Shown in pieces: positions 12,595 to 54,828 of a stretch of DNA of 56,729 bases (the stretch's first letter is position 1; each line of letters opens with the position of its first letter). The stretch is taken from IMG/VR virus record IMGVR_UViG_3300021197_000610, positions 1 through 56,729 of that record. One strand, written 5' to 3'. A model generated the notes under the pieces. That model was not told the origin of the DNA. It saw only the letters and a program-made list of their open reading frames with translations, and did not search any database. The translations under genes were made by a program, and so were the position numbers. This stretch comes from a virus.

Positions 12595-12647
12595 ATCTTT
12601 CCTATCCAATGGGAACAATCGTCATGTGGATCATCTACTGGTTCCAT
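12591..12647 (-). CDS. 18-residue leader peptide before recombinase
   Basis: ATG at 12647 with GGAGGAG five bases upstream, the strongest ribosome site in this area. The stop TGA overlaps the recombinase ATG as ATATGA. The peptide is acidic with DDPHDD and CSHW. Its translation would load ribosomes onto the recombinase start, so it may act as a translational coupler or leader. Confidence 0.5.
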   Translation of the reverse strand: MEPVDDPHDDCSHWIGKI

Positions 12648-36682: not shown

Positions 36683-39211
36683 ATGGCAGGTTATACAAGA
36701 CAATCAGTAGCTGACATTATTGCTAATGCAGTCATTAAAGCTGCACCAGTAAACGCAGAGTACAATGCTATTCGTGATGCCTTTGCTGCAGCAAGTGGGC
36801 ACAAACATGATGGTAGCACAGGAGAGGGAGCTAATGTCCCTCGTATAGCTGATACTGATGCCCTAAACAAAGTTGTTGTAGATACATCAAATAACAGAAT
36901 TAGTTTTTTTACTGAGGTATCTTCTTCTGCTGTAGAACAAATTAGACTAGAGGATGGTGTCCTCAAACCTGTATCTGATGATGATATAGATCTTGGTGCT
37001 ACAGGAGCAGAGTTCAAAGATCTGTACATTGATGGTATAGGTTACATTGATTCTGTTGTTATTACAGGTGGTACAATTGATGGTGCAGTAATAGGTGGGA
37101 CTACAGCAGCAGCAGGTAGTTTTACTACACTAGCTGCTTCTAGTAACGCCACTGTAGGTGGTACTTTTGCTGTTACAGGTACATCTGCTCTTACAGGCAC
37201 AGCAACTATTACATCTGCTGACATTAACTCAGGTGCAGTAGACAACACTACTATTGGTAATACAACTGCTGCTGCAGGTAGTTTTACTACTCTTAGTGCA
37301 TCAGGTACTTCTACTTTAACTACAGTAGACATTAATGGAGGAGCAATAGATGGTGTCACCATTGGTGGATCTTCTGCAGGTGCAGGTACATTTACAGACT
37401 TAACAAGCACAGGGACATCAACACATGCTACGGTGGATATTAATGGCGGTGCTATGGATGGCACAACAATTGGGGCTAATAGTGCTGCGGCAGCTAGCTT
37501 TACAACTGTTGCTACATCTGGTCAGGCGACATTGGCGACTGTTGATATTAATGGTGGTGCTATTGATGGTACTACTATTGGGGGTAGTACACCTGCAGCC
37601 ATAACAGGTACAACAGTTACAGCAAATTCAAACTTTGTTGGAAACATTACAGGTAACGTTACAGGTAATGTATCAGGTGATGTTACTGGTGACGTAGCAG
37701 GAGATTTAACAGGTAACGTAACTGCAGGTTCAGGAACATCATCATTTACTAACGTGACCATTAATGGCACTCTAAACATGAACGCAGGTACATCTGCAAC
37801 GATTACTAATCTTACAGCACCTAGTTCTGATTTAGACGCAGCAACAAAATTATATGTTGATACAGAGGTAGCAGGTCTTGTAGACTCAGCACCTGGAACA
37901 TTAAATACTTTGAACGAATTGGCTGCAGCATTGGGGGACGATGCAGATTTTGCCAACACAATCACAACAAGTATAGCAACCAAGCTACCACTAGCAGGTG
38001 GTACAATGTCTGGTGCTATAGCTATGGGTACAGCTAAGATTACAGGCTTGGGTGATCCAACAGCAGATCAAGATGCAGCAACTAAGAAATATACTACAGA
38101 TACATTCTTACCATTAGCAGGTGGAACTCTAACAGGTGCATTAGCAGTAGGTAGTAACAAGATTACTGCTAGTTATACACCAAGTGCTAGTGCTGATCTC
38201 ACAACAAAAACATATGTAGATGGCATACTTGGTTCAGCTACTGCAGCTTCTACTTCAGCATCTGCTGCTGCTAGTTCTGCCACTGCTGCTGCCTCAAGTG
38301 CTACTGCTAGTGCTTCCTCTGCAACAGCAGCAGCTTCTAGTGCAACCTCTGCAGCATCTTCCTATGATTCATTTGATGATAGATACCTTGGTGCTAAGTC
38401 TTCAGCACCCTCAGTTGACAACGATGGTGATGCCCTAGTTACTGGTGCTCTCTATTTTAATAGCTCTACAAATATTATGAATGTTAGGACTAGTGGTGGT
38501 TCTTGGACTGCAGCAGGTTCATCTGTAAATGGAACTTCAAGTCGTAATGTCTACACTGCTACAGCAGGTCAAACTACGTTTGCTTCTACATACGATTCTG
38601 GTTTTGTAGACGTTTGGCTTAATGGTTTAAAATTAAAAAGTGGAACAGACTTTACAGCTACATCAGGAACTAGTATAGTTCTTGCAAGTGGTGCTACTGT
38701 TGGGGACATCGTAGATATTGTCGCCTATGGCACATTTAATTTAGCTAATCATATAACAGAAGCACAGTCTGATGCTAAGTATCTTTTAGAAGCTAACAAC
38801 CTTTCTGATTTAGTCAGTGCACCAACAGCAAGAACAAATCTTGGTGTAGCTATTGGATCTGATGTACAGGCTTACGATGCAGGTCTAGCTTCAATTGCAG
38901 GACTAACAACTGCAGCAGATAAAATAATTTATACGAGTGGTTCTGATACATATGCTGTAACAGACTTCTCTTCATTTGCTAGAACACTTGTTGACGATGC
39001 TGACGCATCAACAGCTAGAACAACTCTAGGTGTAGTCATAGGAACAAACGTTTTAGCATACGATGCAAACTTACAGAGTTTTGTTTCTGTATTTACTCTC
39101 CCAACTTCTGATGGATCAGCAGATCAGTTTCTAAAAACGAATGGGTCAGGGACACTTAGCTTTGCAACAGTAGACGTTCAGGCTGATCTTAGAAAATCTT
39201 TTGTATTATAG
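36683..39211 (+). CDS. Large repetitive tail fibre protein
   Basis: 842 residues. The first 70 residues (QSVADIIANAVIKAAPVNAE, HKHDGSTGEGANVPRI) look like a virion-attachment domain. Next are five imperfect 35-40-residue repeats built on DINGGAIDGTTIG...AAGSFTTL, then GNVTGNVSGDVTGD repeats, LPLAGGTLTGAL units, a Ser/Ala coiled segment, and TAGQTTFASTYDSGFVDVWL typical of fibre knobs. It is the main trimeric fibre candidate. No intramolecular chaperone was seen at its end. Confidence 0.8.
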   Translation: MAGYTRQSVADIIANAVIKAAPVNAEYNAIRDAFAAASGHKHDGSTGEGANVPRIADTDALNKVVVDTSNNRISFFTEVSSSAVEQIRLEDGVLKPVSDDDIDLGATGAEFKDLYIDGIGYIDSVVITGGTIDGAVIGGTTAAAGSFTTLAASSNATVGGTFAVTGTSALTGTATITSADINSGAVDNTTIGNTTAAAGSFTTLSASGTSTLTTVDINGGAIDGVTIGGSSAGAGTFTDLTSTGTSTHATVDINGGAMDGTTIGANSAAAASFTTVATSGQATLATVDINGGAIDGTTIGGSTPAAITGTTVTANSNFVGNITGNVTGNVSGDVTGDVAGDLTGNVTAGSGTSSFTNVTINGTLNMNAGTSATITNLTAPSSDLDAATKLYVDTEVAGLVDSAPGTLNTLNELAAALGDDADFANTITTSIATKLPLAGGTMSGAIAMGTAKITGLGDPTADQDAATKKYTTDTFLPLAGGTLTGALAVGSNKITASYTPSASADLTTKTYVDGILGSATAASTSASAAASSATAAASSATASASSATAAASSATSAASSYDSFDDRYLGAKSSAPSVDNDGDALVTGALYFNSSTNIMNVRTSGGSWTAAGSSVNGTSSRNVYTATAGQTTFASTYDSGFVDVWLNGLKLKSGTDFTATSGTSIVLASGATVGDIVDIVAYGTFNLANHITEAQSDAKYLLEANNLSDLVSAPTARTNLGVAIGSDVQAYDAGLASIAGLTTAADKIIYTSGSDTYAVTDFSSFARTLVDDADASTARTTLGVVIGTNVLAYDANLQSFVSVFTLPTSDGSADQFLKTNGSGTLSFATVDVQADLRKSFVL
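37060..37620 (+). repeat. Coding repeats in tail fibre gene
   Basis: Five degenerate units of roughly 110-120 bases, each encoding a GGxIDGxxIG...FTTL block. The nucleotide copies differ at many third positions, so they are old, and they could change number by recombination. Confidence 0.6.
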
Positions 39212-39221
39212 GTAGGAAAAA

Positions 39222-39572
39222 ATGGCTTTTACATATGCACAACTAACACCAATTACAACAATAGCAAGTAGTGCAGGAGCAGTGTACACAAACCCTAGCT
39301 CTAAAACATCTTACATTCGTGGTATTGTAATACATAATACAAACACTACTGCTGAAACTGTAGTGTTGTACAATGTTCCTGATAACAGTGGTTCAGTAGG
39401 AACTGCTGCTGCAACAAACCAATTTTATAAGACGAGTGTTGCTGCAGACACAACAATTATAATTGAGTTTCCTGTTCCAGGCTTAGTTCTTTCAGATACC
39501 AACGATACCATACAGGCAACTACTACAACTGCTAGTAAAGTAACAATTCAAATATCAGGAGCTACAGAATAA
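39222..39572 (+). CDS. Small beta-rich tail protein
   Basis: 116 residues, Thr/Ala/Val-rich with alternating strands (SYIRGIVIHNTNTTAETVVL, KVTIQISGATE) and no Cys. Similar proteins occur in fibre clusters of marine phages, from memory, and probably form a small structural disc or fibre part. It overlaps the start of the Cys-rich protein gene by one base, so the two may be made in a fixed ratio. Confidence 0.62.
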   Translation: MAFTYAQLTPITTIASSAGAVYTNPSSKTSYIRGIVIHNTNTTAETVVLYNVPDNSGSVGTAAATNQFYKTSVAADTTIIIEFPVPGLVLSDTNDTIQATTTTASKVTIQISGATE

Positions 39573-41161
39573 TGGGTATTACAGTCTTTCCTACTCCCTC
39601 TAGTTCTGGTGGAACTACAGCAGTAGCAGATCCAAATAGAACTGCTTGGGGTGTACTAGCCCCTTATCCTTGGACAAATTTACAGTATAATCTTTGTAAC
39701 ACTCTTTGTGATAACATAGGTAATATTTATAATAACAACAATGAAATGGGTGAATCTCACATAGTTGATATGGGCAATAATAAATTTGCTCTTGTACACG
39801 ATTGGGAAGATGCAAATCTTTGTTGTGTTCACGTAGGAGTTTACTGTGTTGATACAACTAATAATACAGTACACAGGCTTAGTTGTTGTCACCACAACAT
39901 TTGGAATTGTGCAAGTTGTACTGGTAACTACATGAGCATTTCTGCTATTACAAGTGATGAGTGTGATAATATTCTTATTACAGGAAGAGGTGGTAGCACC
40001 AATTGTGCTCATGCCTTTAAATATCGTTCAGACACAGGTTGTTTCTGTACTAACAGGGTTGAAATGAGTCAAGATAGTTCTCTTAAATGTTTGACAAGTG
40101 CAGGAGAATGTAGACATCATTTATTGTATACAGGAACTCCAGGTCATGCTTGGTACTTTCATCAACGATGTTGTGGGTGCATGGCTTACACAAAAATAAA
40201 AGAAAGATGTTGTCAGTGTGGTACTGCTTTTCAAGCTCTTAGTCCTTCAGGGTCTGTAGCTACAAAAGGGTTTTGGTATATGCCTCAAGTAACAGCCTGT
40301 ACTGTCCAAATGCTAGGCGAGGGTGGCTCTAATGCAGGGCAGTGTGGAAGAGTCTTTGGCTTGAGGGCAGACATCCATAATGTACTAACTGCAGAATGTA
40401 ATGAACCAAATTTAGTTATTCATTGTGGTAATACTAGTGCTCAATGTTGTCATAATCTTGGACCAGATACTTCTGTTTGGACTGACTATAATCAATGTTT
40501 TTTAGACTGCTGTGGTTTTCAATACTTTGCAGAGTTACCACCTAAAGGTCAAGCTACTGCTCCTATGGGATTTAGTGGTTATGCACAACAAATGGCTTGC
40601 CATTGTAGTAGCACTAGTAATGCGTGTAGTTCTCACAGACAAGTAGAAATACATGGATATTACCTTGGCACTGGTTTTGGCTACTGTTCTGTAGGTTTGG
40701 GTAGAAACGAACTAGTTTGTGCAACAACCTCTGGTGGAACTTTTAACTCTGGGGTTACATGTGACGTTGATCAAGATTCAAACATGGGTTCAAATGAATA
40801 TGGATCTTACAGTTTACAAGTTAATGGTATTTATAGAGTAAATTCAAATCAGGCTCATAAGAATAACTGGTTTAACAACAGGGGTGAAGTACACGTTGCT
40901 CTTGGACCTAAATCAACTTGTTCTAAAGCAGACATAGAAAGAGGTGGAGCAAAGTATATCTACCCTTATTATTATACTCGACAAATGAGGGGTGGTCTAT
41001 TTACTTGTAAGAACAAATACAGAGCAAGTGCTGTAGTTGGGACAGACTACTATGTTGAAGTAGGTGTAAAATCTTTTACAGTAGGTGTTTCTGCTCAGTG
41101 TGTAATAGTTGATTTGTACAAGCTAGAACCATTTGCTTGTCACAACTGTTGTTTTATTTAG
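39572..41161 (+). CDS. Cys-rich putative tail fibre/tip protein 1
   Basis: 529 residues with about 42 Cys (8%) and many His, found as CC, CxC and CxxC groups (DLCC-like NLCCVHV, LSCCHHN, HQRCCGC, ERCCQCG, LDCCGF, HNCCF) from residue 42 to the end. The first 40 residues (TVFPTPSSSGGTTAV) are Cys-free. No signal peptide, so Cys would be reduced in the cell and could bind metal or form disulfides after release. It sits in the fibre cluster between small fibre-like genes, hence the structural guess. No family recognised. Codon use and AT content resemble the neighbours. Confidence 0.6.
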   Translation: MGITVFPTPSSSGGTTAVADPNRTAWGVLAPYPWTNLQYNLCNTLCDNIGNIYNNNNEMGESHIVDMGNNKFALVHDWEDANLCCVHVGVYCVDTTNNTVHRLSCCHHNIWNCASCTGNYMSISAITSDECDNILITGRGGSTNCAHAFKYRSDTGCFCTNRVEMSQDSSLKCLTSAGECRHHLLYTGTPGHAWYFHQRCCGCMAYTKIKERCCQCGTAFQALSPSGSVATKGFWYMPQVTACTVQMLGEGGSNAGQCGRVFGLRADIHNVLTAECNEPNLVIHCGNTSAQCCHNLGPDTSVWTDYNQCFLDCCGFQYFAELPPKGQATAPMGFSGYAQQMACHCSSTSNACSSHRQVEIHGYYLGTGFGYCSVGLGRNELVCATTSGGTFNSGVTCDVDQDSNMGSNEYGSYSLQVNGIYRVNSNQAHKNNWFNNRGEVHVALGPKSTCSKADIERGGAKYIYPYYYTRQMRGGLFTCKNKYRASAVVGTDYYVEVGVKSFTVGVSAQCVIVDLYKLEPFACHNCCFI

Positions 41162-41172
41162 GGGAGAATTAG

Positions 41173-41739
41173 ATGACTCAGGCTAGAGTATTAGCAGACT
41201 TAGTTGCTACAGGTGGTGAGCTTGCAGATGGTGCAATAGCAGTCGCAGAGGTTACTGGTGCAGCCCCAACAGCAAGCCCTACATTTACAGGAACAGTAGG
41301 TGCTGCTGCAATTACAGCTACAGGTACAGTAGCTGCTCCTACAGTAAATGCTTCTACTACACTACAGATAGGTGGAACAGGAGTTACTGCTTCTGCTGCT
41401 GAGTTAAATTTTGTAGGGGGTGTGACTTCTGCGATTCAGACACAAATGAATACAAAACAAAAAGAATTTACGCCTACTGTAGTTACTTCAAATGCGACAG
41501 CTACTAAAGATACTAGAGTTATCTTAAATGGTTCTGCAGTAACACTTACGTTACCTGCTAGTCCAAGTGCAGGGGATACAGTAGCTATCACAGAAATAGG
41601 TGGTAACAATAATTGTATCATTGGACGCAATGGATCTAATATTATGAGCCTTGGTGAGGATATGACTGTTGATGCAGCTTATGCAGCTTTCCAGTTACAG
41701 TTTGTTAACTCAACTATTGGTTGGGCAATAGCACAATAA
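41173..41739 (+). CDS. Short tail fibre protein
   Basis: 188 residues with the repeat style of the large fibre (APTASPTFTGTVGAAAITAT, STTLQIGGTGVTASAAELNF, QTQMNTKQ) and a beta-rich C-terminus (DTVAITEIGGNNNCIIGRNG). Only one Cys. It lies between the two Cys-rich genes and may link or cap them. Phage tail-fibre repeats of this kind occur in many marine phages. Confidence 0.72.
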   Translation: MTQARVLADLVATGGELADGAIAVAEVTGAAPTASPTFTGTVGAAAITATGTVAAPTVNASTTLQIGGTGVTASAAELNFVGGVTSAIQTQMNTKQKEFTPTVVTSNATATKDTRVILNGSAVTLTLPASPSAGDTVAITEIGGNNNCIIGRNGSNIMSLGEDMTVDAAYAAFQLQFVNSTIGWAIAQ

Positions 41740-41751
41740 AGAGGGAATAGA

Positions 41752-44229
41752 ATGAGTACATATTCAACATTTGCAGCAAGTGGTGGTTCTGATGGCCCTG
41801 CAGGGGGTGGTGGTGGTTTAGTTACTGGCACTACTTCTTACACAGTTTGTGCAGACAGCAATAGATCTTTAGCTATTTGTTTAACCTGTGAGTGTCCTAG
41901 TGGGAATATTACTCTTCCCAACGCAACTTCTCTATCCCCAGGATCTCCTACTTATATAATAAAAAATGAAAACACCACTACTACTTATCTTTTACGAGAT
42001 AACACAAGTTGTGTTTTAACTTCAATACCACCTGGAGGAGCAGTGGATGCTTCACTGTATGACAACAGTGCTCAACAAGGTGAGTGGGTAATAGGTCAGT
42101 TTGCAAAACCTACACCATTTAATCCTGTTTCAGACCTTTCTTATTTTAGTGGTGGCGAGTTAATAGGTGATGACGTTACTACTGAGTGTGCTCACCATGA
42201 TAATGGTTTAGGCTATTCTGTATTACACTATAGGAGATCAACTTGTTGCTACAAAGCTGTGACGTTTAAAGCAGTTGGTGGAGAAATGGTTAAAGCAGGG
42301 GAAATTGATGGAACAGTCTGCAAGTGTAAATTTAATGCTTGTCGAAGTCAAAATGGATTTGTACTATTTAGCTGCCAGTTTTGTCAGTGTGGTAGTGCAT
42401 TAGTAGACTACGCAAAGTTTATTACAGCTATAAACTGTGATTCAACCTGTGCTGTTACCTTTATAAATTGTTGTCCTGTAGGCTGTTGCCACAACACTGG
42501 AAATGATGGTGTTGGTGATCGTACTGGTAAATGGGATGGAACTCACCTAGTAAGAGGGACAGGAATCCTTTATTCTATGGGAATAATGAACTGTGATAAT
42601 AGATGTGCTGTCATGCAAATAGCTAAGATAAACACAACTAGCACAGGTGCTCCCACCTGTACTGCAGTTCTAGAGTGTGTTCAAGACTTATGTTCTTGCT
42701 CTGCTCACCATTGTCAAAAACATATAACTTTTTGTGAAACAAATACTGATGAATATGACAGACCTAATTGTTGTATGTCAGCAGTTACTGCTTTTTATTT
42801 TGGAGCTACCAATTGTATATGTGGAGAAGTGGGGTTTCTTGTCTCTGTAAAAAATACCCAGTGTTATTATTTTGCACGTAAAGGATGCTCTTGCATTGGC
42901 AAACATGGTGGAGCTAATTCTAGTGGGTATGCATACTTTATAAATGATATACCTTTACTTGGTGTGTGCCAATCTGCTCCTAGTTGTACCACGCAAATAG
43001 TTAAAATAAAACATTGTGATAATGCTGAATGTAATTGTATACTTCATTCACATACAAGTGGGCAATGTGGTTTTGTGCCTATAGGAAAATGTTTCGTTAT
43101 GTTACTAGGCTGTAACAGATGTATGATGGATGTAATGCGAATAAGGTGTTACTGTCAAAATTGTCTATGCAAACATAATCTTTCACAAGGAAGTGAACCT
43201 TTAGGCTGCATGAATACGTGTATGAATCTGTGTCATGATGCAGCATGTTACTTTGTAGGAATGGGTTGTGTAAGTAAACTGAGTGGTAATGCTTGGCATT
43301 ACAGAAATAAGAATGATGGAACTAGTTTTAGAAATGATAACAGTGAAACTGATTACTTAAAATTGAATGATAGAGATCAGTCAAACCCTGTATCATTTTG
43401 TACTAATGCTAATTTGGCTCCTCAACCTAGAGGGTATACTAGTATGTTCTTCTTAACGTGTGATACTGCTGATTGCGTAGCAGGTTTTCATCCATTAAGA
43501 AGTCAAACAAATCATTTTTTAAAATTTTCTAAATTTCACTTAAATGCAACACACCACTGTCATTGCTGTAATTTTTGTATAGCTATACCTGCAGCTTTTC
43601 AGCAAGCAAGTTACAATGATCAATGCATCTGTGGTGAGTGTATGGGTTTTAGATATTGGGACTGTGCAAACTGTTTGTTATGTTCTTATAATATTACAAA
43701 GGGTTATTCTACTAAGTGGTGTATTAATGGGGCGTGTAATGACGCAATTGTGTGTTACACTGCCACAACTGCAGGTAATTCATTTCCAGGAGCTACAAGG
43801 AATAATTGTCTTACATCTGTAAATGCAACGTATAGCCATAGTCCTACTAGATTTATTACCACTAATCATTCTCAATGTAATCGCAGAGAGATGGATATTA
43901 ACATGTACAATTTTGATACTTTTCCAGGTGCAGTTTTCTGTTGCATAATTTCAAAAGAAGAAGGCCATAGACCTTGGAAGGGTGGTTACAGTGGTGATAA
44001 ATGTAAATTCCTTTTAGGAAGCCAACAGTGGATTTGTTGTGGAGCAGTACACACTAATACTGGTATTATAGCAGCAATATATAACCCATCAACAAATTGT
44101 TTTTCTAGTTACGATCAAGGAGTTGCAACTGCGATAACAAGTCAAATTTGTGGAACTGATCCTACAATAGATACTATAACTATTTGTGCTCCATTTAAAC
44201 TACATTCATACATAAAAGGTAAAAGTTAG
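41752..44229 (+). CDS. Cys-rich putative tail fibre/tip protein 2
   Basis: 825 residues with about 79 Cys (nearly 10%), a level more usual in metallothionein-like or disulfide-knot proteins than in phages. Groups include LTCECPS, RSTCCYK, FCQCG, NCCPVGCCHN, DLCSCSAHHC, RCYCQNCLC and HHCHCCNFC. The N-terminus is Gly-rich and contains a beta segment (SGNITLPNATSLSPGSPTYI) like fibre connector domains. No signal peptide or known domain. Ends at the tail-assembly chaperone gene, which supports a fibre or spike role. Confidence 0.6.
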   Translation: MSTYSTFAASGGSDGPAGGGGGLVTGTTSYTVCADSNRSLAICLTCECPSGNITLPNATSLSPGSPTYIIKNENTTTTYLLRDNTSCVLTSIPPGGAVDASLYDNSAQQGEWVIGQFAKPTPFNPVSDLSYFSGGELIGDDVTTECAHHDNGLGYSVLHYRRSTCCYKAVTFKAVGGEMVKAGEIDGTVCKCKFNACRSQNGFVLFSCQFCQCGSALVDYAKFITAINCDSTCAVTFINCCPVGCCHNTGNDGVGDRTGKWDGTHLVRGTGILYSMGIMNCDNRCAVMQIAKINTTSTGAPTCTAVLECVQDLCSCSAHHCQKHITFCETNTDEYDRPNCCMSAVTAFYFGATNCICGEVGFLVSVKNTQCYYFARKGCSCIGKHGGANSSGYAYFINDIPLLGVCQSAPSCTTQIVKIKHCDNAECNCILHSHTSGQCGFVPIGKCFVMLLGCNRCMMDVMRIRCYCQNCLCKHNLSQGSEPLGCMNTCMNLCHDAACYFVGMGCVSKLSGNAWHYRNKNDGTSFRNDNSETDYLKLNDRDQSNPVSFCTNANLAPQPRGYTSMFFLTCDTADCVAGFHPLRSQTNHFLKFSKFHLNATHHCHCCNFCIAIPAAFQQASYNDQCICGECMGFRYWDCANCLLCSYNITKGYSTKWCINGACNDAIVCYTATTAGNSFPGATRNNCLTSVNATYSHSPTRFITTNHSQCNRREMDINMYNFDTFPGAVFCCIISKEEGHRPWKGGYSGDKCKFLLGSQQWICCGAVHTNTGIIAAIYNPSTNCFSSYDQGVATAITSQICGTDPTIDTITICAPFKLHSYIKGKS

Positions 44230-44703
44230 ATGGTTTATTATTTTGTTTTTGATTCAAACACAGAAATACTAGACAGTATTTTATATTCGTATCCAGAAGG
44301 TACAACTAACAAACGTGTTTTAATTTGGGATACTGACATAGAACCAAGATCTTGGACTGCAGTCTCTCCAGAAGAGGATGTTGCTGATCTTGTAGTAGAT
44401 AACTTTGAGTGTGCTTTTCCAGGCCTTGCAACGTACAGTGAAAGTGAAGCAGGAATGGGTATATTTCAACTGTTAGAAAAATTTGATGAAGAAGATATAA
44501 CTACTGCTAAAAATAATCAAATGGATATATTCAGGTTAGCTAGAAATAAAAAACTTAGTGACAGTGACTGGACTCAATCTTCTGACTCTCCTTTAACAGA
44601 CGAAAATAAAGCTGCGTGGGCTACTTACAGAGGTTTATTACGTAACCTTCCTACGTCTGTGACTAACCCTTGGATAATAGACTGGCCTACACAACCCTCT
44701 TGA
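44230..44703 (+). CDS. Tail fibre assembly chaperone-like protein
   Basis: 157 residues beginning right after the fibre stop. The C-terminal part, DSDWTQSSDSPLTDENKAAW then YRGLLRNLP, is the signature of phage tail-assembly chaperones (the DWTQ...P...AWxxYRxxLR pattern). It likely folds or trimerises the fibre or Cys-rich proteins before it. N-terminal half is beta-rich and less conserved. The gene ends where a new promoter starts. Confidence 0.72.
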   Translation: MVYYFVFDSNTEILDSILYSYPEGTTNKRVLIWDTDIEPRSWTAVSPEEDVADLVVDNFECAFPGLATYSESEAGMGIFQLLEKFDEEDITTAKNNQMDIFRLARNKKLSDSDWTQSSDSPLTDENKAAWATYRGLLRNLPTSVTNPWIIDWPTQPS

Positions 44704-44773: not shown

Positions 44774-45700
44774 GTGAAAAAACTATTTTTTATTGATGGG
44801 GGCGCAGGTCGTGCTGTAGCATCTATACCTGCTTTCCTAAAGTATGCAAAGAAACATGATGACTTTGCTATACTAGTACATGGATGGGATACTTTATATT
44901 GGGGTATCCCTGAACTACAAGACAAAGTATTTAACCCTGAACAAAAAGGTATCTTTGACCACGTAATAAAAGATGCTGAAGAGCTTGTATCTCCTGAACC
45001 ATATCGAGTGCCAGGATACTTTAAACAAGAATTATCTTTAGCTGAAGCCTTTGATGTTCTAATTAATGATACGAATGATCATTCTGATCTAGGTCTACCT
45101 GTTCTTAAAACTTCTAAGATGGAAGAGATTAATGCAGCAGGTATGTTCTTGGATGCAAAGAATCAGCAGAAAAAACAAAAGAACATTGTGTTGCAACCCT
45201 TTGGGCGTTCTGCACAAAAACATCCTACTGGTACTATTATTGATGAATCATCTCGTTCTCTTGATCCTCAGTCGTATCTAAAACTAGTTAAGAAGTTAAG
45301 TGTAAAGTACAACCTAGTTCTTATGGCTGAACCAGATTTTCATATGGCAGAGGATACCTACACTGTAAAACCACAGGCAGACCTACGAATGTGGACTGCA
45401 TTTATTGGTTCAGCAGACTACTTTATTGGTGTAGACTCAGTTGGTCAACACATGGCTAGAGCATTAGGAACTCCTGGAACAGTAATTGTTGGTTCTACAT
45501 TTGCTATCAACACAACTTATCCAGACTACTTTAACATTGTAGAAAAAAAGGATGCTAAGAAATACTCACCTATTCGTATCTCAGGTCTTGAGAGTCACCT
45601 AGCTGACAGAGCTAACGATACTCTGATGGATTTTAGTGACGAAGAAATAAATGCAATGTATACTAACATTGTCAAAGATATTGAAAAGAAGGTGAAGTAA
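44774..45700 (+). CDS. Heptosyltransferase-like (GT9/GT-B) glycosyltransferase
   Basis: 308 residues from GTG at 44774. The C-terminal half has the family pattern DYFIGVDSVGQHMARALGTP followed by GTVIVGST, as in ADP-heptose:LPS heptosyltransferases; NIVLQPFGRSAQKH begins the nucleotide-binding domain. The N-terminus (FFIDGGAGRAVASI) takes the place of the usual GDxV start. It probably moves a sugar from a nucleotide donor to an acceptor in the cytoplasm. With the heptose genes downstream the donor could be ADP-heptose. Overlaps the next gene by one base. Confidence 0.75.
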   Translation: MKKLFFIDGGAGRAVASIPAFLKYAKKHDDFAILVHGWDTLYWGIPELQDKVFNPEQKGIFDHVIKDAEELVSPEPYRVPGYFKQELSLAEAFDVLINDTNDHSDLGLPVLKTSKMEEINAAGMFLDAKNQQKKQKNIVLQPFGRSAQKHPTGTIIDESSRSLDPQSYLKLVKKLSVKYNLVLMAEPDFHMAEDTYTVKPQADLRMWTAFIGSADYFIGVDSVGQHMARALGTPGTVIVGSTFAINTTYPDYFNIVEKKDAKKYSPIRISGLESHLADRANDTLMDFSDEEINAMYTNIVKDIEKKVK

Positions 45701-47412
45701 TGAATATTTTAGCAATCAATCCAGGACATAATGGTTCTGCTGCTCTAGTAGTAGATGGTGAATTAAAATTTTATATAGAGGAAGAAAGACTTTCTCGTAG
45801 TAAATATGATGGAAATCCTTTTGCAGGAATGATGGAAGCACTAAAGTATGGTGTAGACATCCTAGTTCTTGGTGGTACTTCAGAACAATTTCCACAGTTA
45901 CCTTGGACAGGAGAAGATCCTTACTCTGGTTTTTTAAGAAAATTTAATCCTAACTTACAAATAATAAGTGTTGGTGGTGCTCACCATCTAGGTCATGCAG
46001 CAAATGCTTTCTACAACTCAGGGTTTAAACAGGCTGCTGCAGTTATTGTAGATGGATCTGGTTCTCATAGACAGATAGAAATTAATGAAGAGTTTAAGAA
46101 CCCAGGTTTTGAAACAGAATCTATTTTTAACTGTGACTATGAAGAGGGAATAAAACCTGTATTTACTTCTTATGGTGGAAACTACGATACCCAACGTATA
46201 GTAAATGAAGAGTTAGAGATGGATAGTGCTATAACACTAGTTAAAGCATACGAAGCTGTTTCACACTATCTTGGGTTTGGTTACATTGAAGCAGGTAAGA
46301 CAATGGGTCTTGCACCATATGGTAAAAGAAACGAGTTTATTCCTAGTTTGTTTTATAATGGCAGAGGTAACAAGAACGTATTTATTCCTAACTACCCTGC
46401 AGGTGCTTACGTAGATCACTTACGCCACCCTTTACTAGAACTAAAAGAAGACCCTAAAGCTTGGCATAGTGACTACACAAAGGTAACAGATGCAGCAAAA
46501 GACTTAGCTTGGGCTGTGCAGGATGAGACACAAACTCTTGTAGGAGACTTAATCGAAAAGGCTGTAGATAAAACAGGACACAAAAACATTGTTATATCAG
46601 GTGGTTATGGTCTTAACTGTGTAGCCAATTACTACTACAAGGAAAGGTTTCCTGATCTTAATATCTTTGTTGACCCTATCTCTCACGATGGTGGTACAGC
46701 AATAGGGTTAGCCAAACTAATTCACTACGATAAGAACAAAGAGGATAAGACTATACGTCCTATGACTACTCTTTATCTTGGCCCTGAACGTAAAGAAGAC
46801 TATGACCTTGGTGATATAGAAACTAAAGATGTTAAAGCTGCTGATGTAGCAAAGCTAATAGCAGACAAAAACATTGTAGCTCTATTCCAAGGACGTTCTG
46901 AAGCAGGACCACGAGCACTAGGTAATCGTTCTATACTATACGATCCCACAGATACTAATGGTAAAGACTTTGTAAACGCAGTCAAAGGAAGAGAGTGGTT
47001 CAGACCTTTTGCAGGTTCAATGCTACAGGAAAACTTTGAAGAGTGGTTTGAAACTCGTGGGTTAGAAGAGTCACCATACATGATGTATGCTATGGACTTT
47101 AAGACTGAGAAGCATGGTGAAGTTCCTGCGATTACACACGTAGATGGTACATGTCGTATTCAGACTGTAACCAAGAAACAGAACCCTAGCTATTATTCCC
47201 TGATAAAAGAGTTTGATAAAATCACCGGTGTTCCTATTTTGTTCAACACAAGTTTTAATCTAGCAGGTCAGCCTTTAGTTGAAACTTTACAGGATGCTAT
47301 AGATACTGTAAAGAACTCAGACATAAATTACTTATATCTGCCAGACATAGGTAAGCTAGTACACTATCCTTATAATGACAGCATTGTTGAGGATATGGGA
47401 GAAGCTGCTTAA
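45700..47412 (+). CDS. Carbamoyltransferase (NodU/CmcH/TobZ family)
   Basis: 570 residues. Family marks: NPGHNGSAALV at the start, HHLGHAANAFYNSGF, RSEAGPRALGNRSIL and FRPFAGSM. These enzymes make carbamoyl-AMP from carbamoyl phosphate and ATP in the C-terminal YrdC-like part, then transfer the carbamoyl group to a hydroxyl through the Kae1-like part. The acceptor may be a sugar made by this cassette; phage members are also proposed in DNA base modification. Overlaps the convergent phosphatase by four bases. Confidence 0.9.
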   Translation: MNILAINPGHNGSAALVVDGELKFYIEEERLSRSKYDGNPFAGMMEALKYGVDILVLGGTSEQFPQLPWTGEDPYSGFLRKFNPNLQIISVGGAHHLGHAANAFYNSGFKQAAAVIVDGSGSHRQIEINEEFKNPGFETESIFNCDYEEGIKPVFTSYGGNYDTQRIVNEELEMDSAITLVKAYEAVSHYLGFGYIEAGKTMGLAPYGKRNEFIPSLFYNGRGNKNVFIPNYPAGAYVDHLRHPLLELKEDPKAWHSDYTKVTDAAKDLAWAVQDETQTLVGDLIEKAVDKTGHKNIVISGGYGLNCVANYYYKERFPDLNIFVDPISHDGGTAIGLAKLIHYDKNKEDKTIRPMTTLYLGPERKEDYDLGDIETKDVKAADVAKLIADKNIVALFQGRSEAGPRALGNRSILYDPTDTNGKDFVNAVKGREWFRPFAGSMLQENFEEWFETRGLEESPYMMYAMDFKTEKHGEVPAITHVDGTCRIQTVTKKQNPSYYSLIKEFDKITGVPILFNTSFNLAGQPLVETLQDAIDTVKNSDINYLYLPDIGKLVHYPYNDSIVEDMGEAA

Positions 47413-48053
47413 GGTAGCTTTTTAGCAAACTGAAGAAGATCATCAAACACTTTGGTCTTCTTTCTAAGTTTCTCTTTTGAGAATTTCTTGAGGTCTTCTT
47501 CAGTTTCTAATCCATGACCAGTACGTACTAAAATAGGAGTAGCACCGATACGTTCTGCAGCTTTAATATCTGTTAGCTTGTCGCCCACATAAAAACCATT
47601 TTGTTTAAACCTATACTTACTTTGAAAAATTTCTTTTTCTGCTCTGTGAAACATACCAAGATTAGGTTTAGCAAAGCAATCACATTTCAGAGAGGTTTCA
47701 GAATAAAACAAACCATCAATGGAGTAGATACCTGCATTGCCAAACACTTCCATCATACGTTGATGAATGGCTTCAACTTGCTCGTGTGTCTGCTCTTTTT
47801 TTATAATACCACCTTGGTTAGTTAAAATTACTAGTTTATAACCTTTAGTTCTAATTAGTCGTATGGCTTCAAGAGAACCAGAAATAGGTTCCCAATCATT
47901 AGGATCAGTAAGATAACCTTTATCTATATTGATAACACCATCTCTATCTAAACCAACTATAGGTTTAGGAAACACTTTAGGCCAGTCATTAGGTATATTT
48001 TGTTGTTGAATTTGTTGAGGGTCTTGTTCTATAATATGTTTAAATCTAGACAT
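47409..48053 (-). CDS. HAD phosphatase, GmhB-like (heptose 1,7-bisphosphate)
   Basis: 214 residues on the strand opposite to the rest of the cassette. Motif I GLDRDGVIN, motif II LTNQGG, and GDKLTDIKAAERIGA (motif IV) match HAD class IIIA GmhB; a reduced zinc loop KCDCFAKPNLGM replaces the usual four-ligand loop. GmhB removes the 7-phosphate (or 1,7-bisphosphate's 7-phosphate) in ADP-heptose synthesis. A 30-residue Gln-rich N-terminal extension is unusual. It is divergent from the cytidylyltransferase gene with 29 bases between. Confidence 0.82.
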   Translation of the reverse strand: MSRFKHIIEQDPQQIQQQNIPNDWPKVFPKPIVGLDRDGVINIDKGYLTDPNDWEPISGSLEAIRLIRTKGYKLVILTNQGGIIKKEQTHEQVEAIHQRMMEVFGNAGIYSIDGLFYSETSLKCDCFAKPNLGMFHRAEKEIFQSKYRFKQNGFYVGDKLTDIKAAERIGATPILVRTGHGLETEEDLKKFSKEKLRKKTKVFDDLLQFAKKLP

Positions 48054-48082: not shown

Positions 48083-48493
48083 ATGAAAAAAGTATTTGTC
48101 AATGGAGCCTTTGATGTAATACACTCAGGACACCTTGATCTAATTGATTTTGCTAGCATGTTAGGGGGTAGATTACTCGTAGCCCTTGACACAGATGAAA
48201 AAATAAGGTATAACAAGGGGGCAGATAGACCTTTAAACAATCTTAAAACTCGGAAGCATCTGATGTCAATGTTAAAGCCTGTAGATAGTGTTGTGTCATT
48301 TAACTCTAATAAAGAGTTAAGTAATATTATTAAAAGGTATAAGCCTGACGTTATGGTAAAAGGTTCCGATTGGAGGGGGAAGAAGATTGTTGGTGAGGAA
48401 TACTGTAAGGAAATAGTATTCTTTGAGAGGACCAACAATGAATCAACAACAAATACCCTCCAAGATTTTGTTGATAGGAGACGGATGTTATGA
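48083..48493 (+). CDS. HldE C-domain-like nucleotidyltransferase
   Basis: 136 residues, a stand-alone cytidylyltransferase-fold enzyme. Motifs: NGAFDVIHSGHLDLI (GxFDxxHxGH), NKGADRPLNN, and VKGSDWRGKKIVGEE. These are close to the second domain of HldE, which adds AMP to heptose 1-phosphate. The AGGATAA ribosome site precedes its ATG. The last 56 bases overlap the kinase gene, which would couple the two halves of what is usually one bifunctional protein. Confidence 0.85.
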   Translation: MKKVFVNGAFDVIHSGHLDLIDFASMLGGRLLVALDTDEKIRYNKGADRPLNNLKTRKHLMSMLKPVDSVVSFNSNKELSNIIKRYKPDVMVKGSDWRGKKIVGEEYCKEIVFFERTNNESTTNTLQDFVDRRRML

Positions 48494-49193
48494 CGAGTAC
48501 TGTTACGGTACAGTCAAAAGATTAAACCCAGAAGCACCTGTACCAGTACTAGATTGGGACACCACTGTTCGTAAATTAGGGATGGCAGGTAATGTACTTC
48601 AAAATTTACAAGCATTAGGTTTAAATTGTCATTATGACATTTTATATAAAGAAACAAAGAAAAGATATATTGATAACAAGACTGGTCAACAAATTGTAAG
48701 GGTTGACATACCTCTTATAGAGGGAGACCATGAAGAACATAGACTACATAAGTTTAATGATTATGATGCTATTGTTATATCTGATTACAATAAAGGTTAC
48801 GTTAGCACCTTTACCATAGAAAGTATCTTAGAAAGTTTTACTGGCCCTGTATTTATTGATACTAAAAAACAAGATTTAAAGTTGTTTGGAAAAGCTTTTG
48901 TAAAAATAAATCAATACGAATACGAGAACAGAATATCTGATGCAGATAACATGATTGTTACATTTGGATCGGAAAAGGTAGTCTACAAAGACAAGCTATA
49001 CTTACCCCCCAAAGTAGATGCACATGATGTTTGTGGTGCAGGGGATACATTCTTAGCAGCTTTAGTATATAGTTGGTTACAAACGCCTGATATACCAAAA
49101 GCCATTAAGTTTGCTATGAAGGCTGCTGCCATAACTGTCAAACATGTCGGTGTGTATGCACCTCGTTTAGAGGAGATACATGATGCGGCTTGA
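48438..49193 (+). CDS. PfkB-type kinase, HldE N-domain-like
   Basis: 251 residues from ATG at 48438 (AGAGGA six bases upstream; TTG at 48423 is an earlier option). LLIGDGCYDEYCYGTVKRL and NPEAPVPVLD are typical of HldE/RfaE kinases, and DAHDVCGAGDTFLAAL is the PfkB ATP/anion-hole signature with the catalytic Asp. Expected reaction: heptose 7-phosphate to 1,7-bisphosphate. The gene order (transferase then kinase) reverses that in the fused bacterial enzyme. Slightly shorter than the usual domain (about 315). Confidence 0.82.
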   Translation: MNQQQIPSKILLIGDGCYDEYCYGTVKRLNPEAPVPVLDWDTTVRKLGMAGNVLQNLQALGLNCHYDILYKETKKRYIDNKTGQQIVRVDIPLIEGDHEEHRLHKFNDYDAIVISDYNKGYVSTFTIESILESFTGPVFIDTKKQDLKLFGKAFVKINQYEYENRISDADNMIVTFGSEKVVYKDKLYLPPKVDAHDVCGAGDTFLAALVYSWLQTPDIPKAIKFAMKAAAITVKHVGVYAPRLEEIHDAA

Positions 49194-49539
49194 GGGGCAT
49201 ATTAAAAAAGGTTGGGGTTCAGAACTAATATGGGCAACCAACGACAAGTACTGTGGTAAGTTTTTACATTTTAACGAGGGTGCTAAATTTTCTATGCACT
49301 TTCATAGGGAAAAAGATGAGACTTGGTACATACTTAAAGGTAGATTTAAAGTTATCTACATAGACACAAAGGATGCAAGTACTCATGAAAAGATTCTCAC
49401 AGATGGTGATACATGGCGTAACGAACCTTTAGCCCCTCATCAAATTATCTGTGAAAAAGAAGGGACAGTAATAGAAGTTTCTACCCCTGACTCTGTAGAG
49501 GATAACTACCGTGTTGGTGGGGGAGACAGCCAGAAATGA
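49180..49539 (+). CDS. Cupin-domain protein (sugar isomerase-like)
   Basis: 119 residues; ATGs at 49180 and 49183 with AGGAG close by. A single cupin barrel: KFSMHFHREKDETWYILKG holds the H-x-H...E metal ligands, and PLAPHQIICEKEGT the last His. It resembles the mannose-6-phosphate isomerase type II cupin. In this cassette it could be a sugar-phosphate isomerase or epimerase standing in for the absent GmhA, which is speculative. Overlaps both neighbours. Confidence 0.75.
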   Translation: MMRLEGHIKKGWGSELIWATNDKYCGKFLHFNEGAKFSMHFHREKDETWYILKGRFKVIYIDTKDASTHEKILTDGDTWRNEPLAPHQIICEKEGTVIEVSTPDSVEDNYRVGGGDSQK

Positions 49540-50309
49540 AAATACTGGTTACTGGTCACAAAGGTTTCATTGGTCAGAATATGGTCAATGCTTTGAAAGA
49601 TAAACATGAAATTTCTACTTACGAGTTTGGTAATCAATACCCAATAATAGACGGACTTGATTGGGTAGTACACTTAGGAGCAGTAAGCTCTACTACAGAG
49701 CAAGACATACGTAAGATAACAGTACAGAACATTGAGTCCTCTATTTATTTGTACGAAGACTGTATAGAAAAAGGTGTAAATTTTCAGTTTGCTAGTAGTG
49801 CTTCTGTATATGGTTTAGAGTCTGGATTTAAAGAAAGCTGTCCTCTTAATCCTCAAAACCACTATGCTAGAAGCAAAGCTTTATTTGAAAAGTATGTCGA
49901 GTATCGTAAAGCTCCTATAATAACTCAAATATTTAGATACTTTAATGTGTATGGTGATCATGAAGATCACAAAAAAGATCAAGCCAGTCCCTACACAAAG
50001 TTTAAAACACAGGCAAAAGAAACAGGTAGCATAAAACTATTTAAAAACTCCGAGTACTACTACAGAGATTTTATACACGTAGATAAAATAGTAGAATACC
50101 ATCAGAAATTTTTTGACGTAAAAGAGTCTGGTATTTGGAACATGGGAACAAGTAGAGAAAAAAGTTTTTACGAAGTTGCTATGGATATATGTAAAGAAAC
50201 AAAGGCAACTATTGAGTGGGTAGACATGCCAAAAAAATTAAAGAGCAGCTATCAAGATTTTACTAGGGCAAACACAGTTAAGCTCTGGCAAACTCTATCG
50301 TTGAGATAA
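49536..50309 (+). CDS. HldD-like NAD(P)-dependent sugar epimerase
   Basis: 257 residues. Rossmann start VTGHKGFIGQNM; LGAVSSTTEQD, FASSASVYG and YARSKALFEKY carry the Ser/Thr-Tyr-Lys catalytic set; FRYFNVYGDHEDHKKDQASP is nearly the HldD landmark (FNVYGxxExHK..MAS). HldD interconverts the two ADP-glycero-manno-heptose epimers. It is about 50 residues shorter than E. coli HldD (310), mostly at the C-terminus. Final gene of the cassette. Confidence 0.83.
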   Translation: MKILVTGHKGFIGQNMVNALKDKHEISTYEFGNQYPIIDGLDWVVHLGAVSSTTEQDIRKITVQNIESSIYLYEDCIEKGVNFQFASSASVYGLESGFKESCPLNPQNHYARSKALFEKYVEYRKAPIITQIFRYFNVYGDHEDHKKDQASPYTKFKTQAKETGSIKLFKNSEYYYRDFIHVDKIVEYHQKFFDVKESGIWNMGTSREKSFYEVAMDICKETKATIEWVDMPKKLKSSYQDFTRANTVKLWQTLSLR

Positions 50310-50319
50310 GGAATAAAAT

Positions 50320-53300
50320 ATGGCGGAAAATCCAGACGATCAAAACTATGATGCTTTTGAAGCTATTAGTGGTGGACCTAACACTATTACTGGCTCTTCA
50401 AACAGTGCTTTAGCTCAGAGGTCTCAAGCTCAGTCTAATATGGACAAGCATAATGCAGGTGTTAGTAGGCGTAAAAAAAGACGTAAGAAAAGAAGGGCTA
50501 GAGAAGCAGCAGCCGCCGCAGCCGCAGCCGCAGCAGAAGCTGCAGCAACAGATACTACTAACGATATAGCAGAAGAAACTGCTGAAGCTGTAGCTACTTG
50601 GACTATGCCAGAGGAAATAGAGTACCAAGCTACTATTGATGGTATTGGTGTACCTACTTGGGTAAATGAAGGGTATATAGATTCGTATGTAGCCTCAGCA
50701 AAACAAGGTCAGCCAAGAAAACCTAATATGCGGGAAATGATGGAGGCTCTTGCAGGTCAAAGTGTTGAGTCTTTGTATGCGTCTGGACAAGACTGGTCTG
50801 GTATTTCAACTATGGCCAGTAACCTTTTATATGGTACTGTAGGTTCTACTCAAGAAACTCGTAATTGGGATGTTATTATGGAGGCTGCAAAGACTCCTGG
50901 AACTAGCACTATTGATCCAGGAAGACTTGAAGCTGCTGCGTCATTAGCTACTGAACAAATGTATGGTGGTTATAATGTTCAATATGAACAGAGTGAAGGT
51001 ACAGATATATTAAAACTTTACTCTAACGCAAATGGTAATTTAATTACAACAATACAACCTAACAACAATGACTGGAATTTAAGAAATGGTAATGGTTTTG
51101 GTCGTATAAGAAGCTTTGGTATTAGGGGTGATATACTAGAGGTTGGATTACCTGAAAATATACAAGATAAATATAAAGTTTATTTTGATGCTTATGACGA
51201 TGTTTATGATCCTTGGTGGGATGACTACCAAGATTTAATGGGTGTAAATTTTCTTTCTGCATTTAAAGAAAAAGATCTACAGGTTGTAGATCAGACAATC
51301 AATACTAATACAAATAATCAAAATACAAATACAGCTAGCACAAATACAGGTGTTGTAGATACTGGAGCTATTCAAGATACTAGTGGTCAAACTACACAAG
51401 CTGTAAACGAAACCACATATACTCCTGATACTACTACAACTACGTTACCAGGTGTTAGCACAGGAAGTCAAAATTTAGGGAGTGCATCAACTGGCACTTA
51501 TCCACAAGCTAACCTTACTGGCACAATGCAGGTAGGTACACAGACAGGTAACTTATCGTCTACACCTGATTCTGTAACTACTATGAATAATTACACAGGC
51601 ACACCTGCATCTAATCTTACAGCACAATCACAACAAGGATTTGGTGGACAAGCTACTTATGCAAACCAGTTTGGTCAAGAAGTTACAGTAACAGAAGATG
51701 CTTCAGGGAATGCTCTAACTTATGTTCCTCCAGGATTTGATAAGGTGGGTGCTGCACAAGGTGGTGTTATGGCTATGAATGAGGGTGGGGATGTACAACT
51801 TGCTAGAAAATTTTTAGGCTTTGATGGACCTCCAAACCAACTTACTAATTTTTTGTCTGCAAATCCTGCAGCTGCGGCTCGTATGGGTAAATACCAACAG
51901 GCTATGTCTGGAATGGCACAAAACAGAGTTGGTGCACAAGAGGGTACTACTGGAACAAGTCTTGAAGATTTTCAAAGAATGCAGCAAAATCTTGTTACAC
52001 AAACCATGCAACCTATTCAGGGTGCTGTAAATTACTTACAGCCAAATCAAGCAGACTTTATAGGTCAAGATGCAGGTAAAGTTTATGATGTAGCAAACAT
52101 GGCAGATGCTGCAACTGCAGGAACTGTTTCTCAAGTTGGTGTACCAAAACTTCCTGACAATGTAGCAACAATGACTCCTGACAAATCTTATACCGAGGTA
52201 AAAAAACAAACTGACGATCTTACCGCCCAGACTGGTGATCCTACTAGGACAGTTACAGGACAGACATCAACTAGCTCTATGGTAGGAAATTTAGATCCTA
52301 AAACAAGTCAGTCTGTAGATGTAACTGGTGCTCCTACTCGTACTCTTCAAACAGGACCACAAGGAGAAGTGATAAGTGGCTCTGCTGTAGACCAAGGTCA
52401 GGTAGCAGGTGCATTTGGAACTGGTGAAGTACAAGCTGCTTCTATGCAAGACGAGTTAGCAACTCTAATGCAGCAGTTTGAAGGTGGTAACACACCTGCA
52501 TGGGCTGCAGGATCTATGCGTAAAGCTACTGCAATAATGGCAGAACGTGGTATCGGTGCATCTAGCATGGCAGGTCAAGCTATCGTACAAGCTGCTATGG
52601 AAGCTGCTCTACCTATTGCTCAAATTGATACTGCTAATAAACAACAAACAGCTTTGTTTAAAGCAGAACAGAGAGCTAAGTTCTTAGGTCAAGAGTTTGA
52701 TCAAGAGTTTCAAACTAGGGTAATGAATGCTGCTAAAGTTTCTGAGATTGCTAACCTGCAATTTAGTGCGGATCAGCAGATTGCCTTAGAAAACTCTCGT
52801 GCTGCAAACACCATGAACCTTCAAAACTTAAACAATAGGCAAGCTCTTGTTCTAGCCGAAGCTGCTTCGTTATCTCAACTAGATGTAACTAACTTAAACA
52901 ACCGTCAGCAAGCTCAAGTAGCCAATGCACAAAGTTTTTTACAGATGGATATGGCTAGCTTATCCAATGAACAGCAGACTGAAATGTTTAAGACCCAATC
53001 AAATATACAGGCAATACTTTCAGACCAAGCTGCTGTTAATGCTTCAGAACAATTTAATGCCACTAGTGAAAATCAAACAGATCAATTCTTTGCAAACTTA
53101 ACTTCAAATGTAGGACAGTTTAATGCATCTCAATCAAATGCAATGGATCAGTTTAACATAAACACAGTAAATGCTTTAAGACAGTTTAATGCTGAAACAC
53201 AAAATCAACGAGACATGTTTAATGCTCAGAATGGTCTTGTCGTAGCACAGGCAAATGCTCAGTGGAGACAGAATTTAGCTACACTAAACAATGCTGCACA

Positions 53301-53574: not shown

Positions 53575-53583
53575 GATAATAAG

Positions 53584-54826: not shown

Positions 54827-54828
54827 TT

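Follow-up and report, generated by a model that had tools for sequence, protein, structure and literature searches.

Cysteine-rich tail fibres and a heptosyltransferase-like enzyme encoded beside them: a candidate fibre S-glycosylation system in phages

What could dozens of cysteines do in a phage tail fibre? The question is raised by the virus record IMGVR_UViG_3300021197_000610, which comes from a marine phage of HMO-2011 type and encodes two extremely cysteine-rich proteins in its tail fibre cluster. The window analysed here is the whole record of 56,729 nucleotides (56.7 kb). A first-pass annotation had noticed the cysteines and missed the downstream neighbour, a heptosyltransferase-like enzyme whose family (PHROG_8954) predicts cysteine-rich neighbours in unrelated phages. 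In our reading the cysteines probably serve to attach a sugar coat, and are less likely to bind metals or to cross-link the fibres by disulfides. The best explanation, which we hold to be rather likely, is that the enzyme S-heptosylates the fibre cysteines and that the heptose is then carbamoylated. It rests on the cysteine enrichment, the coupling to the enzyme in unrelated phages, the location of cysteines at variable repeat positions, the kinship of the enzyme to heptosyltransferases and the presence of a sugar cassette.

Two cysteine-rich proteins and their class

Direct counting confirmed 42 cysteines among 529 residues (7.9%) for the protein encoded at 39572-41161 and 79 among 825 (9.6%) for that encoded at 41752-44229. 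Cysteine makes up 0.72% of the rest of the window and 0.20% of the rest of the structural region; against the former background, the binomial tails for the two counts are about 1e-29 and 1e-60. The genes are arranged as follows (aa, amino acids).

36683..39211 (+): main tail fibre, 842 aa, 0 cysteines (PHROG tail fiber)
39222..39572 (+): small protein preceding fibre 1, 116 aa, 0 cysteines (PHROG_20100)
39572..41161 (+): cysteine-rich fibre protein 1, 529 aa, 42 cysteines, with relatives in contigs L003 and L112
41173..41739 (+): cysteine-poor fibre-type protein between both cysteine-rich genes, 188 aa
41752..44229 (+): cysteine-rich fibre protein 2, 825 aa, 79 cysteines
44230..44703 (+): tail-fibre assembly chaperone (Pfam Phage_tail_APC)
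44774..45700 (+): GT-B heptosyltransferase-like enzyme, PHROG_8954, GTG start, 0 cysteines; proposed fibre cysteine-glycosyltransferase
45700..47412 (+): NodU/Nol-type carbamoyltransferase (Pfam domains)

The fibre-cluster setting therefore holds, with a tail fibre upstream and the Phage_tail_APC chaperone gene downstream. The assignment of both proteins to the virion fibre type is supported by their position, by the chaperone gene and by relatives with recognised tail domains. As the first-pass annotation had suspected, no described family fits either of them, since they match nothing in Pfam, PHROG or INPHARED. Their alternative reading frames contain 29-98 stops, so the cysteine excess is not a frame artefact. 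The cysteine codons of both genes (104 TGT and 17 TGC) follow the bias of the rest of the genome, and the residues are kept in homologues: 39 of 46 cysteine columns at 75% identity, and 64 of 98-100 at 53-56% identity. Recoding of TGY codons, or a purely compositional artefact, can practically be discounted. We found no point in its favour; the window holds no tRNA gene, its other genes use cysteine sparingly with the same TGT bias, and both the frame checks and the conservation speak against it. Recoding was rejected on the first two of these grounds.

The two proteins belong to a diverse class. A total of 139 open reading frames (ORFs) with at least 6% cysteine fall into 37-50 sequence-unrelated groups, and the underlying scaffolds include a glycine-rich domain (Gly_rich_2), Phage_Tail_Tip, Peptidase_S74 with a 17-aa repeat and many unknown ones. 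The cysteine percentage of ORFs of at least 200 aa has two modes, separated by a gap at about 3-4.5%. Close relatives of the window proteins occupy the same genomic place in IMG/VR contigs, and in other contigs this place is taken by cysteine-rich proteins that are dissimilar outside the N-terminus (903 aa with 82 cysteines in L003, 1043 aa with 110 in L001). The N-terminal ~115 aa of fibre 2 are common to the otherwise unrelated cysteine-rich proteins of L003 (903 aa) and L101 (814 aa), the body being exchanged, and in L110 a fibre-1-type start is joined to a different body. Judging from these sequences, the fibres look like swapped receptor-binding modules with cysteine as their sole common trait. 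The gathering cut-off of Gly_rich_2 (PF21722) is reached by neither window protein and is reached by a cyanophage protein (L091:15917-16699, 24.9 versus 24.3). A profile search for ordinary homologues of the cyanophage cysteine-rich fibres in S-TIM4, S-CAM8 and CRP phages found none, and a further search with a four-member fibre-2 alignment returned known relatives only. The open-access PMC literature that we searched yielded no class of cysteine-rich or S-glycosylated phage fibres. Four contigs binned as archaeal (L214, L216, L220 and L221; Woesearchaeota, Euryarchaeota) carry a phage-type cassette and cysteine-rich fibres; they are probably phage contigs in bins of metagenome-assembled genomes.

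The enzyme family and its coupling to cysteine-rich fibres

The link between the 308-aa gene downstream and the cysteine-rich fibres was first read from ORF sizes and then tested with a hidden Markov model. The upstream tail gene had 80 relatives in this comparison; among them, cysteine-rich loci with enough downstream sequence adjoin a 308-aa gene, plus a gene of 567-571 aa where it is in view, and ordinary-fibre loci do not. Relatives of the window enzyme were found in the T4-like cyanophages P-SSM2, P-SSM5, S-SSM7, S-CAM1, S-CAM3 and Sf-FS3, in AG-345 single-cell viruses, in Aeromonas phage HJ05 and in Vibrio schitoviruses. All examined loci of named phages adjoin cysteine-rich or cysteine-raised tail proteins: 36/356 and 36/355 residues in P-SSM2; 29/261, 28/264 and 30/262 in S-SSM7; 36/311, 31/310 and 25/299 in S-CAM1; 73/758 and 31/290 in AG-345-O18; 23/559 in HJ05 and 41/925 in SBP1. 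The weakest cases in this set are Vibrio phages D505 (41/1756) and K479 (39/1643). Conversely, the INPHARED phages with a cyanophage-type cysteine-rich fibre are either themselves hit by the enzyme or share their single-cell name with a virus that is.

Metagenomic sequences extend this coupling. A nearby cysteine-rich ORF accompanies all 31 IMG/VR matches of the 308-aa protein except L124, with 136 bases of upstream sequence in view, and L125, with 3.5 kb. An alignment-based search added 67 loci, 44 of them with an ORF of at least 5% cysteine within 10 kb. In GTDB genome contigs, 10/10 true members adjoin cysteine-rich ORFs as against 0/5 remote heptosyltransferases of the lipopolysaccharide (LPS) type. 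Once near-copies were removed, 97 enzymes remained: 80 accompanied by cysteine-rich fibres, 5 by intermediate ones and 5 by none, with too little upstream sequence for the other 7. The nearest cysteine-rich ORF lies on the enzyme's strand in 78/78 cases and upstream in 76, at a median distance of 546 bases. Among loci of at least 12 kb, counts that include some contigs more than once, 90/108 enzyme-positive ones are cysteine-rich versus 1/27 enzyme-negative ones, the lone negative case being a 157-aa ORF on the opposite strand.

The constant partner of the cysteine-rich fibres is the enzyme, not the sugar genes, because control phages that carry the carbamoyltransferase or the ADP-heptose genes but lack the enzyme show no cysteine-rich fibre in view. 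The carbamoyltransferase alone was rejected as the partner, as S-TIM4, S-CAM8 and Mosig have it together with ordinary fibres and no enzyme; so were the ADP-heptose genes alone, which S-SM2, P-TIM68 and S-T4 carry in sugar clusters with neither enzyme nor cysteine-rich protein in view. A diverged enzyme in S-TIM4 ORF_41 was likewise dismissed for want of similarity. In S-TIM4 (L196 21588-25416) and S-CAM8, a trio of cysteine-poor ORFs of ~290-370 aa next to the carbamoyltransferase repeats the layout of the S-CAM1 cysteine-rich trio; the enzyme is absent there, and no homology to the S-CAM1 trio could be detected.

The enzyme is a remote relative of heptosyltransferases. It scores 18.8 bits against the GT9 profile PF01075, under the Pfam gathering cut-off of 22, and its best NCBIfam matches are heptosyltransferases III (9e-6), Q and I, far under their cut-offs. 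A profile search of PDB sequences gave weak matches to WaaC and WaaF. With the AlphaFold model, the top Foldseek matches are WaaF, TibC and WaaC (E 1e-6 to 1e-4, template modelling scores 0.4-0.47; the best is 1psw at E 1.1e-6), which makes a GT-B heptosyltransferase fold moderately well supported. The aspartate of the heptose-site motif VDSxGQH (VDxxxxH), Asp221, is invariant in 97/97 enzymes. In the same 97/97 the aspartate of the GDxGD motif is replaced by arginine; in WaaC this residue, Asp13, acts as catalytic base. Since thiols depend less on such a base than hydroxyls do, the replacement fits a cysteine acceptor without proving it. The four-cysteine iron finger that marks BAHT enzymes such as TibC is absent from the cysteine-free window enzyme. 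Lacking the BAHT finger as well as the score and the catalytic aspartate of GT9, the enzyme is filed by us in neither family.

Position of the cysteines and competing explanations

The arrangement of the cysteines was examined in 31 representatives. Their spacing is near random, and 15/31 have an odd count, which leaves no even-number rule. The CC, CxC and CxxC groups emphasised by the first-pass annotation are present, yet they barely exceed chance for a 10%-cysteine protein (1.28x, 1.16x and 1.09x). No other residue is conserved as well as cysteine in aligned relatives. Lost cysteines give way to N, E, K or D, while F, V, M, L and A are avoided; of the rows of BLOSUM62, those of Asp (correlation 0.75), Asn (0.67) and Glu (0.62) come closest to the exchange profile of cysteine. 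No single base change leads from a cysteine codon to N, K, D or E, so this exchange reflects selection on the residue and not mutation. The profile points to a surface-polar role. A sample of 11 repeat fibres from enzyme-bearing loci, comprising ~428 units of the 17-aa repeat AIGxxALxxNTTGxxNT, locates the residues further: cysteine occupies 17, 15, 13, 25, 17 and 10% of the variable positions 4, 5, 8, 9, 14 and 15, as against 0-3.8% of the others, with zero at 6, 7, 10 and 17. From their variability we take these positions to be exposed. Cysteines of consecutive units are not stacked (42 seen versus 54 expected).

Five INPHARED homologues of the repeat fibre, picked as ordinary low-cysteine controls, provided an unplanned test. 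The fibres of Venkman, CRP-1 and CRP-7 hold 5/730, 1/607 and 1/803 cysteines. Those of HTVC112P (14/756) and HTVC111P (12/811) hold more, mostly at exposed-type repeat positions, and in both phages the gene directly downstream, annotated 'glycosyl transferase', proved to be a remote member of the enzyme family (profile E ~2e-12 over most of the length) carrying GGxGK, EPY and DSxxxH. Both are isolated Pelagibacter phages suited to testing.

L233 4920-5801 (HTVC112P): remote enzyme-family member after an S74-type fibre with raised surface-type cysteine
L234 5091-5972 (HTVC111P): the same arrangement

The first-pass annotation had regarded homologues of ordinary cysteine content as evidence against a special role. 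For the repeat-type fibres they do exist, in phages for which no enzyme was found, and this fits a modification role. At exposed-type positions, the enzyme-bearing fibres differ from the five homologues in cysteine (15.8 vs 2.7%), serine (12.0 vs 14.5%) and threonine (4.3 vs 6.2%), and Asp+Glu falls from 9.1% in the homologues to 2.2%. The drop in Asp+Glu alongside the rise in cysteine, seen in the repeat fibres of L126, L141, L156, L164, L172 and L175, possibly reflects a preference of the enzyme.

The first-pass annotation had suggested metal binding or disulfide hardening, and neither suggestion was borne out. In the latter, the cysteines would oxidise after lysis into a dense network within or between chains that stiffens the fibres. 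Such networks are known in phage Milano, whose structural proteins contain 2.1% cysteine, there deemed unusually high (PMC10811340), and in phage 7-7-1; the status of cysteine as the most conserved residue would also suit hardening. The paired and positionally fixed cysteines of the Milano type are, however, not found in the cysteine-rich fibres. The random spacing, the odd counts, the turnover to N, E, K and D, the lack of stacking in repeat turns and the preference for variable repeat positions argue against disulfide and metal roles alike, and hardening would leave the coupling to a glycosyltransferase family unexplained; we judge it quite unlikely. Metal binding, in which Cys/His clusters would hold iron, zinc or copper in the tail in the manner of the 'Ferrojan horse', could draw on the 20 and 26 histidines of fibres 1 and 2 and on the mild enrichment of histidine beside cysteine (1.1-1.4x). 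In the sequences, though, neither CxxC nor any other site geometry exceeds chance, histidine is not a favoured substitute for cysteine overall, no site is common to the sequence groups and the enzyme coupling is again unaccounted for, which makes metal binding appear highly improbable.

Two further explanations keep the enzyme and change what it does. It might, with its partner, glycosylate another target, such as fibre serine and threonine or host surface sugars, the cysteines being selected separately, for instance as free thiols binding a receptor. TibC, a BAHT enzyme, modifies serine and not threonine (PMC4358343), earlier authors took such cyanophage genes for LPS genes that modify the surface of the host (PMC2984593), and a few family members lack a cysteine-rich neighbour. 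Yet it is cysteine, not serine or threonine, that rises with the enzyme at exposed-type positions, the cysteine-rich gene shares the enzyme's strand without exception, and a second unknown factor would be needed; we consider this explanation unlikely. Alternatively, the same cassette could direct a different modification to cysteine, with another sugar or with a thiocarbamate formed directly by the carbamoyltransferase. The missing catalytic aspartate and the adjoining carbamoyltransferase in 41/45 fully viewed loci would suit such a reaction. Against it stand the carbamoyltransferase-bearing phages with ordinary fibres and no enzyme (S-TIM4, S-CAM8, Mosig) and the cysteine-raised phages without a carbamoyltransferase (HJ05, SBP1, K479), and we regard it as very unlikely. 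None of the rivals accounts as well as S-heptosylation does for the enzyme coupling together with the surface-polar way in which cysteine behaves.

Several points nevertheless weigh against S-heptosylation. The loss of the catalytic aspartate could mean a different reaction. No acceptor sequon around cysteine was found in the 31 representatives, and the presumed exposure of the variable positions derives from repeat variability. The AlphaFold model of the enzyme is moderate, with a predicted local distance difference test (pLDDT) of 63, and that of fibre 1, run with three sequences, is unusable (pLDDT 26). Of the 45 fully viewed loci only about half have the full ADP-heptose set, genes of this kind are also found in phages that lack the enzyme (S-SM2, P-TIM68, S-T4), and no match to the P-SSM2 'phosphoheptose isomerase' (GmhA) was found in the window, where a host enzyme or a diverged gene is possible. 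Finally, the enzyme occurs without a cysteine-rich protein in L157 (a 58-kb record searched whole), L145, L183, L187 and L125, and cysteine is intermediate in L148, L149, L161 and the Vibrio phages SBP1 and K479. Except for L183, L187 and the Vibrio phages, these exceptions belong to a single subclade with 18 members, which have their enzyme gene amid other sugar genes; there, either the enzyme modifies another target or the fibre lies outside the record. In L157, L145, L173 and L161, members of the subclade found among sugar genes with no or moderately cysteine-rich proteins, the acceptor may differ.

Sugar cassette, proposed pathway and significance

Downstream of the enzyme, the carbamoyltransferase matches Carbam_trans_N (77.7 bits) and Carbam_trans_C (212.2 bits), both over the Pfam cut-off. 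It is followed by a set of ADP-heptose genes, GmhB-, HldE kinase-, HldE adenylyltransferase- and HldD-like, all of them below the NCBIfam equivalog cut-offs.

47409..48053 (-): GmhB-like heptose-bisphosphate phosphatase (NCBIfam 1e-39)
48083..48493 (+): HldE C-domain-like heptose-1-phosphate adenylyltransferase (NCBIfam 7e-31)
48423..49193 (+): HldE N-domain-like heptose-7-phosphate kinase, PfkB (NCBIfam 3e-34)
49180..49539 (+): small cupin of the cassette, PHROG_7851 ('cysteine dioxygenase'), also similar to WbuC/sugar-isomerase cupins
49536..50309 (+): HldD-like ADP-heptose 6-epimerase, 257 aa (NCBIfam 1e-60)

The constant place of the cupin beside the heptose genes suggests a sugar-related or thiol-related role. 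Among the 45 fully viewed loci, HldE-type genes were present in 22 and the epimerase in 24. Cyanophages carry the same gene block beside their cysteine-rich fibres, and the Aeromonas and Vibrio phages have the enzyme only, which could be explained by a supply of ADP-heptose from their hosts. The LPS of Synechococcus WH8102, host of Sf-FS3, is free of heptose (PMC4515613), so a phage growing on it would need its own ADP-heptose. Sullivan et al. (2010) reported that T4-GC 304, 305, 307 and 308 co-occur in P-SSM2, S-SM2 and S-SSM7 and left open whether these heptose genes are functional or 'stuffer DNA' (PMC3037559).

Beyond the cassette, four adjoining cysteine-free proteins of 1084, 249, 168 and 323 aa, with no Pfam or PHROG match, occupy 50320-55800. 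Elsewhere the window encodes ThyX (10339-10998, minus strand), a weak M28 peptidase match (12771-13739, minus strand) and a tyrosine-recombinase integrase (11710-12618, minus strand; PF00589, 1e-19), so that integration may be possible for this phage of HMO-2011 type.

From these genes we infer a pathway in which the enzyme acts on the fibres, with the cysteine thiol as acceptor and heptose as the sugar, followed by carbamoylation and to the benefit of the phage. The fibre polypeptides would be kept soluble with the help of the chaperone encoded at 44230-44703. In the cytoplasm, the 44774-45700 enzyme would move heptose from ADP-heptose onto exposed cysteine thiols of both fibres, and the carbamoyltransferase would carbamoylate the attached heptose. 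The GmhB-, HldE- and HldD-like proteins would supply ADP-heptose where the host lacks or limits it. The modified fibres would then mount on the virion with a coat of dozens of small S-linked sugars, which may serve stability, shielding and protection, or receptor specificity.

Among the closest known systems is the modification of the adhesins TibA and AIDA-I by TibC and AAH, in which a dedicated heptosyltransferase modifies an adhesin at many sites from ADP-heptose (PMC4358343), as we propose here. TibC belongs to the same clan as the phage enzyme and is among its best structural matches; the phage gene sits beside fibre-type proteins, which would be the counterpart of the multiply modified adhesin. 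TibC, however, is a dodecamer with a four-cysteine iron finger and a serine acceptor, whereas the phage enzyme has no cysteine, carries arginine at the GDxGD aspartate and would act on cysteine-rich fibres. The GT9 enzymes WaaC, WaaF and WaaQ share the GT-B fold match and the VDSxGQH motif with its invariant aspartate; the phage family differs by its universal arginine and by an acceptor that, from gene context, is not LPS, and the window enzyme falls under the Pfam gathering and all NCBIfam cut-offs. S-linkage of sugar to cysteine, only proposed for the fibres, is found in sublancin, glycocin F and pallidocin, although these bacteriocins are small peptides modified at single sites with hexoses, not heptose, by another transferase family (SunS-type). 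Milano and 7-7-1 also have unusually high cysteine in structural proteins, but at ~2% and in mapped disulfide pairs, unlike the 8-12% of randomly spaced, surface-type and enzyme-coupled cysteines described here. The cyanophages P-SSM2 and S-SSM7 have 'LPS gene clusters' (Sullivan et al. 2010) to which the cassette genes (T4-GC 303-308) in part correspond. The earlier interpretation was LPS genes or 'stuffer DNA', whereas the position of these clusters beside cysteine-rich fibres suggests the phage's own fibres as the target.

We lean towards the view that the window represents a system widespread among phages: on receptor-binding fibres with many unrelated folds, a dedicated phage enzyme S-heptosylates the surface cysteines and a partner carbamoylates them, so that each fibre bears dozens of S-linked sugars; this would also explain the ADP-heptose genes of P-SSM2 and S-SSM7. 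Even if the chemistry proves wrong, the coupling of one enzyme family to cysteine-rich fibres across unrelated phages demands an explanation. If it is right, the enzyme would be a candidate thiol glycosyltransferase for glycoengineering, and the heptose genes beside the P-SSM2 and S-SSM7 fibres would acquire a role, a question testable on the isolated phages P-SSM2, S-CAM1 and HTVC111P/112P. Models of host range and adsorption would change, because structure prediction from the bare sequence would miss the surface that the host meets. The dense S-glycosylation of a structural protein would then constitute a new kind of protein modification system in marine phages of several lineages.

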